47,832 bases of DNA from Oscillospiraceae bacterium (lineage in GTDB: Bacteria; Bacillota; Clostridia; Oscillospirales; Ruminococcaceae). Of this stretch, positions 1,480-47,832 are shown piece after piece. Every line of letters begins with the position of its first letter. Position 1 is the first letter of the stretch. The stretch covers positions 1 to 47,832 of the forward strand of contig JAFLUD010000003.1 in assembly GCA_022508965.1 (NCBI GenBank), given 5' to 3'. Under the pieces are notes generated by a model. That model made no database searches, was not told the origin of the DNA, and saw nothing but the letters and a program-made list of their open reading frames with translations. A program made the position numbers and the translations under genes.

Positions 1480-3399
1480 TTATACCTTGAATCTGTCGAT
1501 CTGGTGTTCGAGGATAGCGGACTGGCTGCTGAGCTCTTCGCAGGAAGCTGCGGTCTCTTCTGCCGTCGCGGAGTTCTGCTGAACTACCTGAGAGATACGC
1601 TCGATACCGATCTTTACCTGAGTAATGGACTCTGCCTGATCCTCTGCCGCGGTGGAGATATCCGTGATATAGCGGTTGGTGCGGTCGGACAGCTCGGTAA
1701 CTGCCTTCATGGTCTCGGCAGTGCTCTGAGCGATCACGGTGCCCTTGTCTACTGCCTGAATGGTCGCGTTGATGAGGTCGCCGGTCTGCTGAGCGGATTC
1801 TGCACTCTTCGCGGCAAGGTTTCTTACCTCGTCCGCAACTACCGCGAAGCCCTTGCCCGCAGCTCCCGCACGCGCAGCCTCAATAGCAGCGTTCAATGCG
1901 AGAATGTTGGTCTGGAACGCGATATCGTCGATAGCCTTGATGATGTTCTGGATCTGGTCGGATTTTTCCTTGATCTCGTCCATTGCGCCGAGCATATTCT
2001 GGATCTCGTTGTTCTGGTAGGTGATCTTGTCGGAAGTCTCGGTGGAGATCCTGCTTGCCTCGTTTGCGTTCTGGGCGCTCTTCTGAACCTGATCCGCGAT
2101 GTCGTTGATGGACGCGGAAAGCTCTTGGATAGCCGCAGCCTGCTGAGTGGTACCCTCCGCGAGCATCTGAGAACCTTCGGCGATCTGCTCGGAGCCGTTC
2201 TTAACGTCACGCGAGGAGTTACCGATGTTTCTGATCATCTCACGCAGGGATTCCTCGATCTTTCCGAAGGAGGACTGGATCTCCAGGAAGTCGCCGTGAT
2301 AAGCGACCTTAGGCTGAGCGGTGAAGTCGCCCATTGCCATATCGGACAGAACGGAGTTGATATCGCCGATGTAGCTGTTAAGATTGCTCTTGGTATGCTC
2401 GAGCTTTCTTACGAAATCGCCCAGCTCGTCGTTGCCGAACTTAAAGTCGGTGTGCGGCTTGTGGAACGCACCGTCGCTCATATCGTCCGCAACAGCGTTT
2501 GCCTCCAGGATGGGGGTAATAATGAGCTTCTTGTTTACAATTATAAGAATTACGATCGCAACAGCGGTGATTCCTATTGCAGTTACAATAATAATTATAA
2601 CAAGCTTTGCCTTCATAGCGTCGGTTTCCGTTCCGTCGGTTCCCGCGCAGTATGCGCCGATTATCTTGCCGTTTATGTCGGGCATCGGCTCGTAAGCTAT
2701 GTAGTAGTGCGCGCCGGAGATCGGAGCCTCGGCGTGAGTGCCCTCGCCGTTTACAAGTACGGTCTGAGCGGTTGCCGCGCTCATTTTCGTACCGGTCAGG
2801 CGCTTGCCTGTCTCGTCCATAAGCGTCGTGTTAACACGAAGATCGCCGCTGAACAGCGCCAGATCGCAGCCCATTGCGTCCTTGATATTGTCGAGCCATG
2901 CTTCGTCGGTCATCGGCTGACCTACAACTATCGAGCCTACGACAACGCCGTCAATGTCCAACGGCATAGCTACCTGAATGGTAACGTCCGCCTTAGAATC
3001 CAGCACAAAGCCCATCCAGCCGCCTTTCTGCGCGGCTACATAATCGAAATCCGCGAGATTATAGCTGGGGGTCTTCCAGAAGATCTGTCCGGAGGTGTTA
3101 TAAACCGCGAGGAACTCGGTCTCGCTTTCCTGCTCGGCATCCCAGAATGCCTGAAGATCTTCCTCGGTGCCTGGAACTCCCATATCCAGAGCGTTCATGG
3201 TTTCCAGGAAGCTCTGAAAATCAATTATCTTGTCCGCGATCTGAATCTCGAGCAGCTTAACGCTCGCTACGTTCTGGTCGCTGACGATCTCTTTGATGAT
3301 CTCAGAAGCCATAGACACCGATATGATACTCAATGTCGCAATGGCAACGACCATACCTGCCACAAATACCGCAATAAGTTTTAAACCTATTCTTGACAT
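1480..3399 (-). CDS. Methyl-accepting chemotaxis protein with Cache sensor
   Basis: A 639-residue transmembrane chemoreceptor that senses a ligand outside and controls a CheA kinase inside. Visible in order: TM1 at about 7-30; an extracellular Cache-type sensor (about 40-255); TM2 at about 263-287, very rich in Ile and Val; a HAMP linker; and a long coiled-coil signalling domain with the conserved hairpin tip [20 protein letters not shown] near residue 500. There is no C-terminal CheR pentapeptide. The start at 3399 (MSRIGLK) is preferred over an in-frame ATG 25 codons upstream because GGAAGGA lies about 10 bases before it. No che genes are in the window, so this is an orphan receptor; ligand unknown. 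Confidence 0.95.
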
Positions 3400-3476
3400 A
3401 AAAAAGCCATCCTTCCCTGTTTTTGGGCTGCGTAACAGAAACGCGCTCAGAAGCAGAAATAAATTTACACACATAT

Positions 3477-42402: not shown

Positions 42403-42431
42403 TTGATTTATTAAGAATAATATTGTATAAT
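42403..42431 (+). promoter_or_regulatory. Promoter of the PilZ/GGDEF genes
   Basis: TTGATT (42403-42408) and TATAAT (42426-42431), 17 bp spacer, inside a very A/T-rich 150 bp gap. Confidence 0.8.
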
Positions 42432-42477
42432 AGTTAAAGGAGTATTCTGCAATAAATTCAGGTAAAGGTTGATGTCA

Positions 42478-43155
42478 ATGATTTTCGGCGGTAAAATCAT
42501 AAAGGTTGACGTCTTGGACGAAAAGGGCGTTCCGATAATATCTGCGGAAAAGAACTTTGTTGTTCCCACAAACATCGCCGCCGGCGAGGACAGCATAGTG
42601 ATGATAAAGGGCAGGAACCTGCCCGAGTTCGACCGCAACACCTTCGTTCTGGTAGTCACCACCACAAAAAGCGGCGACAGGATCCAATACAACGGCGCCG
42701 TTTCCGTGTCGATGGACACTCAATTGAATATAAAGCTCCTGCTTTCAAACGATAATCAGGTTCTGGAAGAACGCCGGAGATACTTTAAGCTAAAGGTCAA
42801 CGAAAAAGGCAGGCTGCTTTTCTATGTGCGCGATGAGCAAACCGTCCGATATGACGATCCGCTTCCGATAACGGTCCTGGATATCAACGTCGGCGGCGTA
42901 TTTTTGGTAATTGAAGACGAGCTGATGCCGGACGATCTGGTTTGTGTAGAGCTTGATCTGGTGGAGAATCTTCCGCTGAACACGGTGGCAAAGGTGCTGA
43001 GAGTACAGCGCGCTCCCGACGGAAGCGTCAGGGGCTACGGCTGCGAGTTCCAGGGGCTTACGGGCGCCCAGGAGGATTACATAGGAAAATTCATTCACAG
43101 GGTACAGTCTGAACAGCGGCAGAAACAGGTCGCCGAGGAAGAAGGAAATTTTTGA
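42478..43155 (+). CDS. PilZ-domain protein with a YcgR-like N-terminal domain
   Basis: 225 residues. Residues 1-90 form a beta-rich domain like the YcgR-N/flagellar brake type. A PilZ domain follows: LEERRRYFKLKVN (about 95) and DINVGGVFL (about 135). In c-di-GMP-binding PilZ these read RxxxR and D/NxSxxG; here the second Arg is Lys and the Ser is Asn, so binding may be altered. The start at 42478 is chosen for spacing to AAAGG; an ATG at 42472 is possible. It precedes a diguanylate cyclase gene by 54 bp. Confidence 0.85.
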   Translation: MIFGGKIIKVDVLDEKGVPIISAEKNFVVPTNIAAGEDSIVMIKGRNLPEFDRNTFVLVVTTTKSGDRIQYNGAVSVSMDTQLNIKLLLSNDNQVLEERRRYFKLKVNEKGRLLFYVRDEQTVRYDDPLPITVLDINVGGVFLVIEDELMPDDLVCVELDLVENLPLNTVAKVLRVQRAPDGSVRGYGCEFQGLTGAQEDYIGKFIHRVQSEQRQKQVAEEEGNF

Positions 43156-43209
43156 CGCAGGGCAATTCCGCGCCAGTAAAATATATTTATCTGCTTAGGG
43201 GGAAAAACG

Positions 43210-45225
43210 ATGAGAAAATCGACTCTGAAATTTGGTCTGATAGGCGTTCTGCTTATCTTTGCGATCGTGCCGTCCATAATTCTGGGTTTGGTGGGCACGT
43301 TTGCGACCATCAATTACAGCAAGGACGTCCGCGAAAACGAGCTTGCGGCTGTTTCGCTGTCCAAATCCGGTGCGATTGACGCGCTGTTTTCCGGGTATAC
43401 CGAGGGAGCGGCGTCTTTGGCGAAGATGGGGGCGGTCATTGAGAACGCCGAGAAGAACAACAACGCGGCTGAAAACGAGTTAAAAGCGTTCATAAGCGAA
43501 AGCGGCGACATCATTGACGCGCTGATCGTTGATAAGAACGGCGTTGTGCTGGTTTCTGCCAAGAGATCTCAGACAGGAAACTTCGAGCATTACGACGAGG
43601 GCGGACTGCTTTCCGTATCCGGGCTGCTCACCTGGGAGAGCTATCAGACCGACGCGTTTTACGTTTCGCACGCGATAAAGGGCGCAAGCGGCAATGAAGC
43701 GGGATATGTGGTTTTCATAGTTTCCGTAAACGCTAACAGCGGCATAGGCAGAGCACTTAACGGTACTTATCTCGACGGAAGAGCTTATTTGGCGCTGGTC
43801 GATTCCGACGGCAATACCGTGAATTTCGGCGCAAGCGGCTCCCCTATGAACAGCGGTCAGCTTGACGGCGCTTTTAAAGGCGAGGTTCGCCATATCTTCG
43901 ATAGCACCAATGTTACCGATAAAAATAGCGCCGAAAACATGAAAACCGGAAAAACCGGAAAATTATCCTTTGTATACGGTATTATCCCCGATGTAAACAC
44001 CTGGCGCTGGGTAGGTATCGCGGATTCCACCGCGCTTACCGATTTCGCTTCGCAGAGAAATATCATCATCTGGGCTGCGGTTGCGGTAGTTTGCGTACTC
44101 GCGCTGCTGCTGGCGTTCGTGATCATCGGAAAGTTTGTCAACAATATGCAGCAGATGCTCAGAGAGATGAGCAATATCAACACCGACGAGGGCATTTCCT
44201 CCTCCATGCGCTTTGACACCAAGCACGACAAGAGCGAGCTTGGCGCGATCAAGAACTCCTTCAACGAATTCCTCGACGAGGTAGTTCTGAACAGTGAACG
44301 TTACCGCACGATAGCTTCGCTGTCCGATAATATGCTTTTCGAGTGGGATTTCCATAAAGAAAGAATGTACGTTTCCGACAATCTGCTCGCGAAGTTCGAT
44401 CTCAACATCTCCAACGCGACCCTCTCCAACGGACGCTTCCTTGATTCTCTGATGGAACAGGAATTCGCGGATAAATATAAGCGCGATATCAATACTCTTT
44501 TGAAGAACCTGACCAACTACACCGGAGAGTATCAGGTAAAGACCAGGAGCGGCGCTGTCGTTTGGATCTCCTGCAAGGCTACCTGCATCACCAACCGTCT
44601 GGGCGAGGCGCTTCGTGTAATCGGCGTATTGACCGATATCGACAACGAGAAGAAGCTTGAGGTTCAGCTCTCAGAGCGTGCAAGCTACGACTTCCTCTCG
44701 CAGCTCTATAACAGAAGCACGTTTATCAAGAAGCTCACCACTCAGCTTGACCGCAGAGGTCCCAATAAGGTCGGCTTGATGTTCATAGATGTCGACGACT
44801 TCAAGTTTATCAACGACCGCTACGGACACGCGGTCGGCGACGAAGTAATCCGCTTTGTGGCTGACACTATCCGTAAAAAGGTTGACGACCGCGGCGGCTT
44901 CGCTGGACGCTTCGGCGGCGACGAATTCGTTCTGTGCTATACCAACCAGGACGACGTGGCAAATCTCGAGCAGATCGCAATGGACATCATCGACGAGCTG
45001 TATGTCGGCTATACCACGGCGGACGATATGCTCATCAACGTTCGCGCGTCGATAGGTATATCCTACTGCCCGCAGCACACAGAGGACTGCAACGAGCTTA
45101 TTGCTTATGCCGATACCGCTATGTACTTCGTAAAGAAGAACGGTAAGACCAACTACCATGTATACGTTCCGGAGGACAGTGCATCCGGCGAGTATGAAGA
45201 CCCCGAGTTTGAAGTGGGTAAATAA
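43210..45225 (+). CDS. Diguanylate cyclase with Cache and PAS sensors
   Basis: 671 residues. TM1 (about 8-32), an external Cache-type sensor (about 40-280), TM2 (about 287-310), a HAMP-like linker, a PAS domain (about 368-485, DNMLFEWDFHKERMYVSDN) and a GGDEF domain with GRFGGDEFVL near 568 intact, plus FIDVDDFKFINDRYGHAVGD. The catalytic set for c-di-GMP synthesis is complete. No RxxD inhibitory site precedes GGDEF, so product feedback may be lacking. GGGGG precedes the ATG. No EAL or HD-GYP partner is in the window. Confidence 0.96.
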   Translation: MRKSTLKFGLIGVLLIFAIVPSIILGLVGTFATINYSKDVRENELAAVSLSKSGAIDALFSGYTEGAASLAKMGAVIENAEKNNNAAENELKAFISESGDIIDALIVDKNGVVLVSAKRSQTGNFEHYDEGGLLSVSGLLTWESYQTDAFYVSHAIKGASGNEAGYVVFIVSVNANSGIGRALNGTYLDGRAYLALVDSDGNTVNFGASGSPMNSGQLDGAFKGEVRHIFDSTNVTDKNSAENMKTGKTGKLSFVYGIIPDVNTWRWVGIADSTALTDFASQRNIIIWAAVAVVCVLALLLAFVIIGKFVNNMQQMLREMSNINTDEGISSSMRFDTKHDKSELGAIKNSFNEFLDEVVLNSERYRTIASLSDNMLFEWDFHKERMYVSDNLLAKFDLNISNATLSNGRFLDSLMEQEFADKYKRDINTLLKNLTNYTGEYQVKTRSGAVVWISCKATCITNRLGEALRVIGVLTDIDNEKKLEVQLSERASYDFLSQLYNRSTFIKKLTTQLDRRGPNKVGLMFIDVDDFKFINDRYGHAVGDEVIRFVADTIRKKVDDRGGFAGRFGGDEFVLCYTNQDDVANLEQIAMDIIDELYVGYTTADDMLINVRASIGISYCPQHTEDCNELIAYADTAMYFVKKNGKTNYHVYVPEDSASGEYEDPEFEVGK

Positions 45226-45228
45226 ATA

Positions 45229-45300
45229 GTTTAGACAACAGGGACGTGCAGGGGCGTACAGGGAAGGTACATCTTTGTGCGCCCCCTGTGTTGTTTAAAC
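45229..45300. repeat. Long imperfect palindrome between the cyclase and parA (REP-like)
   Basis: The outer arms GTTTAgACAACA(GGG) and (CCC)TGTGTTGTTTAAAC and the inner arms GGGGCGTACA and TGTGCGCCCC (one G-U) can pair as a rod of over 20 bp with a bulge. It begins 4 bp after the cyclase stop. No T-run follows; it resembles the GGGGCG...CGCCCC intergenic repeats common in clostridial genomes and may also stop transcription. Confidence 0.6.
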
Positions 45301-45321
45301 GGCTAAATTGGAGGAATTGCA

Positions 45322-46119
45322 TTGACAAAGGTAATTGCGGTGACAAATCAAAAGGGCGGCGTGGGAAAGACAACCACCTGCGCGGGTCTTTGCGGGGGAC
45401 TTTCCCAGATGGGAAAAAAAGTCCTTGCGGTTGACCTCGACCCTCAGGGAAACCTGAGCTTCAGCCTCGGAATAGAGGTGGAGGACAACTTCACGATTTA
45501 TGACGTTATGAAAGGAAACTGCGATATCGGCGACGCCGTTATTCACGGGGATATCTGCGACGTTGTTCCGTCTAATATACTGCTGTCGGGCTTGGAGCTT
45601 GAAATGACGGGCGTAGGGCGCGAGTATGTTCTGCGCGAACAGCTCGGATACATCAAAAAGGATTACGACTATATCATTCTGGATACGCCGCCGGCGCTTT
45701 CGGTGCTGACGATAAACGCCTACACCGCCTCGGACGAGCTTATTATCCCGATGCTGTGCGAGGTGCTTTCTCTTCAGGGAATCGCTCAGCTCAGACAGAC
45801 GATATTTGCTGTCAAGAGATATTACAACAAGTCTCTTGCGGTGCGCGGGATCCTATTAAATAAGTACAATCCGCGCTTTACTCTCACAAAGGAAGTCGAA
45901 GAGCTGGCGCAGATGATAGCCGATCAGCTCGGGACCACAATATTCGACACGAAAATAAGCGCGTCGGTGTCCATTGCCGAAGCGCCCGCACACGGAGAAT
46001 CGATCATCACCTACTCCCCGAACAGCCGCGCTGCAAAGGAATACAAGGCGTTTATCAAGGAGCTTATTTCTCCTGCCGTTAAAAAAACTTCCTCTAAGAA
46101 AAGCGGAGATAAAAAATGA
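45322..46119 (+). CDS. ParA/Soj-family ATPase
   Basis: 265 residues. Deviant Walker A KGGVGKTTT (about 11-19), LAVDLDPQGNLS (about 37), Walker B DYIILDTPPALS and the C-terminal Soj-like part. Start codon TTG with GGAGG 7 bases upstream. Members move cargo such as chromosomes, plasmids or protein clusters using ATP-dependent dimerisation. No parB or parS site is near, and the downstream partner is a ComFB-type gene that overlaps it by 4 bp, so it is probably an orphan ParA for a non-chromosomal cargo. The C-terminus is Lys/Ser-rich. Confidence 0.95.
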   Translation: MTKVIAVTNQKGGVGKTTTCAGLCGGLSQMGKKVLAVDLDPQGNLSFSLGIEVEDNFTIYDVMKGNCDIGDAVIHGDICDVVPSNILLSGLELEMTGVGREYVLREQLGYIKKDYDYIILDTPPALSVLTINAYTASDELIIPMLCEVLSLQGIAQLRQTIFAVKRYYNKSLAVRGILLNKYNPRFTLTKEVEELAQMIADQLGTTIFDTKISASVSIAEAPAHGESIITYSPNSRAAKEYKAFIKELISPAVKKTSSKKSGDKK

Positions 46120-46631
46120 GTAAAAAATCTCGCGGAAAAATAAAACCGCAAAAGCCCGCGGCAAAGCAATCCTCGGGCTGCAAAACTCCGCAGGTAATGA
46201 AGCTGGTGGAGGACAATAAGAGCAAGGCAAATCAAGTGATAATGGCGGGAAAAAGCCAGATCCCCGAGCAGCTTCGCAAGAGAGAGCCATTGTCGCGGAT
46301 AATGAAGCGTGACGTAAGCAGCGATCTCAACGAGGCGTTCTCCGACGCTCAGGACACCGTGGTGGTGAACATCACCGAGCTTGCCATCGAATACGAGGCG
46401 CCCGAGATCCTCGACCGATTCAACGCCTGCAGCTGCGACAAGTGCGTTGAGGTGTTCTGCCGCATGATGTCCGAGAAGGTGCCCGCGCGTTTTGCGAGGG
46501 TGAATAAATTCACACGCAGAACCCCCACGCGCGAGCTTAAAGACCGCGTCGAACCGATGCGCAGGATAGTTCTGACCGCGATGATAAGGGAGCTTATCTG
46601 CAACAAAAAACGCTGTTTCCACGATGAGTAA
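46116..46631 (+). CDS. ComFB-family protein
   Basis: 171 residues. A basic, disordered N-terminus (about 1-35) precedes the ComFB domain: VVVNITELAIEYEAPEILDRF, then the cysteine cluster ACSCDKC (about 105-110), with FARVNKFTRRTPTR further on. Bacillus ComFB belongs to the competence locus and binds zinc with such cysteines; ComFB-type proteins have recently been reported to bind cyclic dinucleotides (from memory). Its start overlaps the ParA stop (ATGA), so the two are coupled in translation. The C-terminal third is variable. Confidence 0.85.
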   Translation: MSKKSRGKIKPQKPAAKQSSGCKTPQVMKLVEDNKSKANQVIMAGKSQIPEQLRKREPLSRIMKRDVSSDLNEAFSDAQDTVVVNITELAIEYEAPEILDRFNACSCDKCVEVFCRMMSEKVPARFARVNKFTRRTPTRELKDRVEPMRRIVLTAMIRELICNKKRCFHDE

Positions 46632-46689
46632 TCGGCTGCGATTTCAGCAATAATAACCATAACAAATAACAACAATAAGGAGCAAAAAT

Positions 46690-47706
46690 ATGTCTCTGGA
46701 TATCGGAATAGACCTGGGAACGGCGAATATTATCATAACCGTCTCGGGCAAGGGAATAGTTCTCAACGAGCCGTCGGTCGTTGCATACGACAAGAAGAAA
46801 AAGGCGGTCGTAGCCGTTGGCAGCGAAGCGTATAAAATGCTTGGAAGAACGCCCGAGTACATCGTTGCGGTGCGTCCGCTAAAGGACGGCGTGATCTCGG
46901 ACAACGACATGACCCAGGCGATGATCAAAGAATTCATTAATATAGTAAACGGCGGATTTATGGTAAAGCCGCGCGTGGTGCTTTGCGTGCCAAGCTCAGT
47001 CACCGATGTTGAACGCAGAGCCGTTGTTGAGGCGGCGCTTTCCGCGGGCGCGCGCAAGGTGTTCCTTATAGAGGAACCGATCGCTGCTCTTATCGGCGCG
47101 GGAATAGATATTTCAAAGCCCAACGGCACGATGGTCGTTGATATCGGCGGAGGGACCTCCGACGTCGCGATTGCGTCGTTTAACGGAATAGTACAGTCGC
47201 GTTCCGTTAAAATGGCGGGAAACAAGTTTGACGCCGCGGTAATTCGTCACCTTACCCAGAAGTATAAAATTCTCATCGGAGAAAAAACCGCTGAAAAGGC
47301 GAAAATGGAGATCACCAACGTGTTCAATCCCACGGGCGAGAAGAAGATGGTGGTTCGCGGAAGACACCTGCTAAAAGGACTTCCCGAGAGTTTGGAGATC
47401 ACAGATATTGATATGTACGAGGCGCTGCACGACAACGCCATGGAGATAGTCGAGCAGATAAAGCTGGTGTTGGAATCCACGCCGCCGGAGCTTGTCGGCG
47501 ACATTCTCAGCAACGGTATCCTGCTTACGGGCGGCGGCGCAATGCTCGGCGGACTTGCGGAGCTTATAACCGACCGCGTTGGCGCGCCCTGCTTTATCGC
47601 GGACAAGCCTATCGAGTGCGTAGCGCGGGGCGTAGAAATGGCGTTCTCTATGTCCGAGTCGCTGCTGGACGGCTTCGAGCAGGTGCAGCTGTACGGTTTC
47701 CGCTGA
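46690..47706 (+). CDS. mreB: MreB-family actin homologue
   Basis: 338 residues. Phosphate-1 loop DLGTAN (8-13), phosphate-2 VDIGGGTSDVAI (about 149) and adenosine-binding LLTGGGAMLGGL (about 277) are intact, so it is an ATP-binding filament protein of the MreB/Mbl type that guides cell wall elongation. AAGGAG precedes the ATG by 7 bases. It is followed by a terminator, not by mreC/mreD, so it is an isolated copy and may be Mbl- or specialised MreB-like. It closes the PilZ-GGDEF-ParA-ComFB run. Confidence 0.93.
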   Translation: MSLDIGIDLGTANIIITVSGKGIVLNEPSVVAYDKKKKAVVAVGSEAYKMLGRTPEYIVAVRPLKDGVISDNDMTQAMIKEFINIVNGGFMVKPRVVLCVPSSVTDVERRAVVEAALSAGARKVFLIEEPIAALIGAGIDISKPNGTMVVDIGGGTSDVAIASFNGIVQSRSVKMAGNKFDAAVIRHLTQKYKILIGEKTAEKAKMEITNVFNPTGEKKMVVRGRHLLKGLPESLEITDIDMYEALHDNAMEIVEQIKLVLESTPPELVGDILSNGILLTGGGAMLGGLAELITDRVGAPCFIADKPIECVARGVEMAFSMSESLLDGFEQVQLYGFR

Positions 47707-47734
47707 TAGTTTTTGAGAATAAAGGGAATAGTTA

Positions 47735-47778
47735 AAGCCCCGAATCAGTTTGATCCGACTGCTTCGGGGCTTGTTTTA
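47735..47778 (+). terminator. Terminator after mreB
   Basis: AAGCCCCGAA (47735-47744) and TTCGGGGCTT (47763-47772) form a 10 bp stem around an 18 nt loop, followed by GTTTTAT. It starts 28 bp after the mreB stop. The remaining 54 bases show nothing I can name. Confidence 0.8.
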
Positions 47779-47832
47779 TACTAATTCTCGATAAAAAGCA
47801 GACAAGATTTGTGGAGAGACCGTGCCTAGCGC

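Follow-up and report, generated by a model that had tools for sequence, protein, structure and literature searches.

Gene content of the locus

The 47,832-nt stretch of contig JAFLUD010000003.1 from an Oscillospiraceae bacterium, hereafter called the window, carries close to its right end five consecutive genes on the forward strand, which encode a PilZ-domain protein (42469..43155; PF07238), a membrane GGDEF protein (43210..45225), a ParA-type ATPase (45322..46119), a ComFB-domain protein (46116..46631) and an MreB/Mbl paralogue (46690..47706). A preliminary description of the sequence had reported this run of five genes with no parB beside parA, and both the gene positions and the absence of parB were confirmed. 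It had further proposed that the membrane cyclase sets the level of c-di-GMP, which is read by ComFB and ParA in order to place a surface machine on MreB tracks. The comparative analysis leads to a different grouping of the genes: the ParA-ComFB pair is a flagellar module, and PilZ, ParA and ComFB together look like a flagellum-linked module of gut Clostridia that lack FlhF.

Co-occurrence of the ParA-ComFB pair with flagella

For the analysis of co-occurrence, 148 genomes of the window's family were scanned with the ComFB profile and with a cut-off for FlhA. The ComFB profile matched in 49 of them, FlhA exceeded its cut-off in 50, and 45 have a ComFB gene that follows parA in the same orientation (in locus L024 the contig ends within ParA). 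All but one of the pair-bearing genomes carry flhA (44/45), and the sole exception, G047, is 73% complete and holds flgN and cheV beside the pair. Conversely, 97 of the 98 FlhA-less genomes are without the pair (Fisher p 7e-30, a value which ignores relatedness). Six FlhA-positive genomes have no pair (G015, G023, G053, G064, G068, G087). ParA adjoins the ParA-linked type of ComFB in 45/45 family loci and a PilZ protein is encoded upstream of ParA in 14 of these; the association of ParA-ComFB with a surface machine thus stands as the preliminary description had it, with the flagellum as that machine. The genome of the window itself carries flhB-flhA-fliA and cheC-cheD on contig C100.

Additionally, ComFB of any kind was found to be nearly limited to flagellates: among 391 genomes of the class, FlhA is present in 109 of the 112 genomes with ComFB (exceptions G220, G386 and G490), and ComFB matches are absent from 241 of the 244 FlhA-less genomes. 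A methyl-accepting chemotaxis protein with a Cache domain, which is encoded in the window at 1483-3474 on the reverse strand, fits a motile host.

Gene order around the pair

Flagellar labels were assigned from reference proteins named by eye from sequence and order. Flagellar or chemotaxis genes lie within the fetched stretch in 28 of the 45 family loci, several of which are on short contigs, and three layouts recur. In the first, (PilZ)-ParA-ComFB is located ahead of flgB-flgC-fliE-fliF-fliG-fliH-fliI-fliJ, in the second ParA-ComFB is divergent from flgM-flgN-flgK-flgL-fliW, and in the third the pair lies beside cheC-cheD, flgG-flgF, fliA, flhA or fliD-fliS. By type, 9 of the 45 loci were assigned to FlgB, 16 to FlgM/K and 3 to CheC/CheD/CheV/FlgG.

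An independent collection of named genomes was represented by the 80 top-scoring hits of the window ParA, which are not a census. Fourteen of these matches adjoin ComFB, and all 14 have flagellar genes nearby: 13 carry three or more flagellar labels, and the remaining one (L044) has fliD and fliS. None of the other 66 matches has at least three flagellar labels (0/66), and 62 of them have ParB. The 14 genomes are labelled as Lachnospiraceae, Hungatella, Oscillospiraceae, Oscillibacter, Intestinimonas or Erysipelotrichaceae, or plainly as Clostridia, Firmicutes, Bacillota or bacterium.

Two further proteins were observed near the pair. A gene for a membrane protein of about 240 residues borders the PilZ-ParA-ComFB cluster on the opposite strand in 12/45 loci, as judged by tblastn (examples: L021 10892-11617, L025 9493-10278 and L029 7867-8547). 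A protein of about 213 residues is encoded downstream of ComFB in some lineages (L028 7537-8178, L030 6210-6878; also L137, L139 and L143).

Distribution of FlhF and FlhG

Flagellar number and placement are controlled in the textbook system by FlhF-FlhG. FlhF was called by TIGR03499 above the curated cut-off in 48 pair-bearing genomes, comprising the 45 family genomes and 3 genomes elsewhere in the class whose pairs were verified, and was found in none of them (0/48). The pair is thus mutually exclusive with FlhF in the genomes tested. The genome of the window (G000), a bin that is 90% complete, gave a best FlhF match of 77 bits against a cut-off of 174. FlhF was likewise above cut-off in 0/14 named pair genomes, with 4/4 flagellate controls positive; the named and class sets may overlap, since G389 and a Hungatella have almost identical ParAs.

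Outside the family, FlhF is present in 99 of 106 pair-less flagellates (23/26 and 76/80), where pair-less stands for a short or no ComFB match and ParA adjacency was checked in the 29 class loci L152-L180 only. Two ParA-linked ComFB loci were found among these (G306 and G389); for G228 and G326, which have longer open reading frames under the ComFB match, adjacency to ParA was left unchecked. In family f31, FlhF was found in 12/12 tested pair-less flagellates, and the lone pair genome G389 is without it. Genus g16 offers a natural test pair of two FlhF-less flagellates, G132 with the ParA-ComFB pair and G015 with a short ComFB only.

The interval between flhA and fliA measures 19-263 nt in the 16 loci of pair-bearing genomes which hold both genes; in G173 it extends over 8355 nt and contains flhF and an FlhG-like gene. 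Judged from this interval alone, FlhG is probably absent genome-wide from the pair-bearing genomes as well.

The ParA-type ATPase

The deviant Walker A motif of ParA reads KGGVGKT in the window and in 54/57 pair ParAs, and KGG[VA][GS]K[ST] in 57/57, rows without a form like the latter having been dropped beforehand. In a tree of 57 of the 62 pair ParAs and 21 of the 24 Soj proteins, from which short or unparsed rows were omitted, a branch with 100/100 support separates the pair ParAs from the 21 Soj. Domain match, tree and residue comparison thus place the window protein in a flagellar ParA group. Identity with the chromosomal Soj was rejected on the basis of this branch and of the missing parB; the window's genome has its own Soj-ParB elsewhere (L038). 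K181 is gained in 96% of the pair ParAs and occurs in none of the Soj.

In FlhG-type proteins the N-terminal motif DQAxxLR precedes the P-loop. In the window ParA, KGG is preceded by 10 residues that contain nothing of this motif; the FlhG-like protein of G173 shows DQAQQLR before its P-loop and forms its own long branch in the tree.

The ComFB partner and its N-terminal motif

The window ComFB protein is a divergent member, whose assignment is based on adjacency to ParA and on the match to structure 4wai by profile and by fold. It does not reach the PF10719 cut-off, which is passed by 4/8 syntenic relatives, and it deviates from conserved residues of the domain. The predicted model was aligned to 4wai over residues 82-171, corresponding to a ComFB domain at 46359..46628, and the CxCxxC at residues 105-110 is common to both. 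Block means of the predicted confidence (pLDDT) range between 86 and 96 over residues 81-170, except for 74 at residues 131-140.

Linked ComFBs carry an N-terminal motif of the approximate form K[TED]xx[VM][ML]x[LK][LI], in most cases flanked by a basic stretch ahead and by a linker of variable length behind (27-503 residues, median 50; 43/45 parsed). In the window protein it reads KTPQVMKLV (residues 23-31; 46182..46208) and represents a candidate ParA-activating peptide; a helix that partly coincides with it is predicted with low confidence at residues 28-38. A more permissive pattern detected the motif in 60 of 61 ParA-linked ComFBs (44/45 family, 14/14 named and 2/2 other), the exception L144 having a similar stretch without the lysine. 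Among the unlinked ComFBs, whose tails are almost absent, the motif was found in 0/29 parsed (one of the 30, L175, was unparsed). The net charge of the motif region has a median of +3 and a range from 0 to +6 (43 parsed of 45). The N-terminal motif of linked ComFBs is similar to the N-terminal segments through which ParB, MinE and PomX stimulate their cognate ATPases. On account of the ParA-linked motif, the basic tail and the linker, ComFB is best read as the putative partner of ParA and its link to the machine.

A second, canonical short ComFB, tail-less and above the Pfam cut-off, is encoded in the window's genome at G000:C157 1442-1699 (L037). Among the unlinked short ComFBs of other families inspected by eye (L168, L169, L172, L176), some are located by prepilin-like or pilus-type genes and others by aroK/aroE-like or rpsB-tsf-like genes.

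PilZ and cyclic-dinucleotide input

The PilZ domain was confirmed in 11/11 upstream proteins scanned. A role as YcgR-type flagellar brake is conceivable for the PilZ protein, whose N-terminal half showed no consistent Pfam match and whose profile retrieved no solved structure. ComFB of Synechocystis is described in PMC12313861 as binding c-di-AMP and c-di-GMP and controlling pili; given this ligand binding and the PilZ gene upstream in 14/45 loci, a cyclic-dinucleotide input through both ComFB and PilZ is plausible by analogy.

The cyclase and mreB genes

The genome G094 belongs to the same genus as the window, is 99% complete and has neither FlhA nor a ComFB match. Its contig C17 keeps the gene order of the window with MBOAT (75% identical), DHHW (65%), RluD (56%), GGDEF (55%) and MreB (87%), and PilZ, ParA and ComFB are absent between the kept genes (tblastn: best E-value 0.62 for ParA and 6.5 for ComFB, no match for PilZ). 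In this one genome the five genes are split: PilZ, ParA and ComFB track flagella, GGDEF and MreB do not. L021 and L023 likewise have the order PilZ-GGDEF-ParA-ComFB, and the short contig L022 shows GGDEF-ParA-ComFB; it is therefore more probable that G094 lost the three genes than that the window gained them, again as judged from one genome.

An mreB gene was seen no farther than 10 kb from the pair in 2/45 genomes, the window's and G016 (in the latter within 5 kb, at L024); many contigs are short and mreB is elsewhere mostly on another contig. At 5 of 7 further mreB loci the neighbours are recD2-comFC, with mreB after them, and flgF/flgG labels were found at 0/7. MreB was therefore rejected as a part of the system and is regarded as a bystander, and the MreB tracks of the preliminary description are not supported. 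A link of mreB to flgF/flgG across the contig end was also rejected, as no overlap of at least 15 bases exists between the right end of the window and either end of C100.

The GGDEF protein combines a weak dCache match and PAS with an intact GGDEF motif (RFGGDEF at the domain core, as in diguanylate cyclases); inspection revealed no RxxD inhibitory site. A GGDEF gene adjoins the pair in 4/45 family loci, and as it is kept in G094 without PilZ, ParA and ComFB, the proposed participation of the cyclase is weakly supported and fits an optional neighbour. Pairs are hence found mostly without a cyclase or mreB nearby, an outcome which the preliminary description had itself named as speaking against its model. 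Neither mreB nor the cyclase gene seems to be indispensable to the module.

Transcriptional elements

All elements described here lie on the forward strand. Upstream of the PilZ gene, a sigma-70-like match (TTGATT-17-TATAAT; 42403..42431) agrees at 10/12 positions; the call is weak, since the region holds 6 such sites compared to a shuffle mean of 5.2 and hence no excess. A strong RNA hairpin in the gap between GGDEF and ParA (45229..45300) is a candidate terminator or attenuator, contained in the stretch 45226-45321 with a fold of -39.9 kcal/mol and a z-score of -4.5. On account of this hairpin, cyclase and pair may have separate transcripts, and the pair may be insulated from that of the cyclase. 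A terminator-like hairpin follows mreB at 47735..47772 (stretch 47707-47790, z -5.2). No Rfam family reached its gathering score between 38000 and 47832.

Proposed function and alternative explanations

PilZ-ParA-ComFB rather probably constitutes a flagellum-associated system that positions flagella or controls their number and takes the place of FlhF-FlhG. For such a system we infer ATPase activation, ligand binding, a cargo and a positioning function as follows. ParA would act as an ATP-driven positioning ATPase, on which the short basic N-terminal peptide of ComFB would dock and stimulate ATP hydrolysis. Behind the disordered linker, the C-terminal ComFB domain would tie ParA to a component of the flagellar basal body or of chemotaxis, so that the site or number of flagella (or of chemosensory arrays) would be set in place of FlhF-FlhG. 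Cyclic dinucleotides would probably enter via the ComFB domain and PilZ, and in some lineages via the neighbouring GGDEF enzyme. A more far-reaching version is put forward tentatively, with somewhat less than even confidence: ParA-ComFB would be a self-contained flagellar patterning system that displaced FlhF-FlhG in several lineages of Clostridia, and more than once (e.g. inside f31), with an activator that is itself a cyclic-dinucleotide receptor, so that flagellar site or number would be read directly from c-di-GMP or c-di-AMP.

Several observations weigh against the proposed flagellar role. The genomes are related and the counts are therefore not independent; 17/45 family loci, the window included, show no flagellar or chemotaxis gene in the fetched stretch, and the 48 kb of the window are without a recognised flagellar gene, the receptor gene at 1483-3474 being the only motility-related one. 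Both the pair and FlhF are absent from all six pair-less family flagellates (FlhF in 0/6), and 7/106 pair-less flagellates elsewhere are also without FlhF (G158, G196, G237, G302, G330, G334, G517), so that loss of FlhF does not require the pair. The pattern used for the N-terminal motif is loose and was written after the sequences had been seen. The usual PilZ signature for c-di-GMP consists of RxxxR and [DN]xSxxG; the upstream proteins show the non-standard form RxxxK and [DN]xNxGG (13/13 parsed of 14; DxNxGG in the window). Finally, two basic positions of ParA kept in 21/21 Soj are lost (A214 and S217 in the window; basic in 5% and 2% of the pair ParAs). As these positions presumably lie within the DNA-binding region of Soj, binding of the pair ParA to the nucleoid is uncertain and the surface which it may use is unsettled.

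The pair might position chemoreceptor arrays instead of flagella, with ComFB as the array adaptor, in the manner of Vibrio ParC-ParP or Rhodobacter PpfA-TlpT. This appears rather unlikely. Loci near cheC-cheD-cheV or cheW do exist (L039, L041-L043, L045, L046, L048, L049, L051), and ParC and PpfA are given as ParA-type array positioners in PMC9178275; however, family loci adjoin basal-body and hook-filament genes more than che genes (9 + 16 vs 3 of 45), and the exclusivity with FlhF points to flagella. A non-spatial, FleN-like role in flagellar gene expression or assembly order, in which ComFB would sense a cyclic dinucleotide and ParA would gate a flagellar regulator, is less probable still. 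The frequent position of the pair divergent from flgM or ahead of flgB would agree with it, and FleN controls flagellar genes through FleQ according to PMC9178275, but no recurring transcription-regulator gene was noticed at the loci, where no systematic search was made, and spatial ParA partners are built in just this way, with a basic N-terminal peptide and a linker (PMC7993993).

A type IV pilus or competence function is very unlikely: it would accord with the control of pili by Synechocystis ComFB (PMC12313861) and with the unlinked ComFBs of other families seen by eye beside prepilin-like or pilus-type genes, but the linked ComFBs lie in flagellar loci (pilus families were not searched genome-wide). 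The original model, in which ComFB/ParA read c-di-GMP from the membrane cyclase and position a machine along MreB tracks, had been favoured by the adjacency of the five genes and the MreB near the pair in G016; it is hardly tenable given the rarity of MreB and GGDEF near the pair, their retention in pair-less G094 and the hairpin between GGDEF and ParA.

In every tested genome of motile Clostridia with the pair, FlhF is missing and the pair is found instead. If the flagellar positioning or number-control role is correct, the 'late competence' protein ComFB gains a role outside competence, a family of second-messenger receptors is joined to a ParA motor, and flagellar placement in pair-bearing Clostridia becomes a two-gene question that is directly testable. 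No description of a ParA-ComFB pair was found in the titles and abstract openings of the open-licence papers that literature searches retrieved.

Comparison with known systems

The partner ParP of the chemotaxis ATPase ParC carries a CheW-like domain; no CheW-like or receptor domain was detected by Pfam in the ComFB partner of the window and 8 others. ParC-ParP and PpfA-TlpT share with the pair an orphan ParA and a non-ParB partner in motility loci (PMC9178275), but the pair is located in the family mostly in flagellar and not in che loci. With FlhF-FlhG the pair has in common a ParA/MinD-family ATPase in flagellar loci and it occurs where FlhF is absent; it differs in that the pair genomes have no FlhF above cut-off, the window ParA lacks DQAxxLR and the partner is ComFB. 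Soj-ParB is alike in the ParA family and deviant Walker A, whereas the window ParA has no ParB neighbour and is set apart from the 21 Soj by the 100/100 branch. The ComFB/CdgR receptors (4wai, 8hja) have the same fold, for 4wai also with CxCxxC and the profile match, while the window ComFB differs by its ParA-linked N-terminal tail, its ParA partner and the flagellar instead of pilus loci, its ligand binding being predicted. PomX-PomZ and McdB-McdA are similar in the layout of the partner, with a basic N-terminal peptide, a disordered linker and a C-terminal domain (PMC7993993); in the window partner, in contrast, the C-terminal position is taken by ComFB, whose family includes cyclic-dinucleotide receptors.

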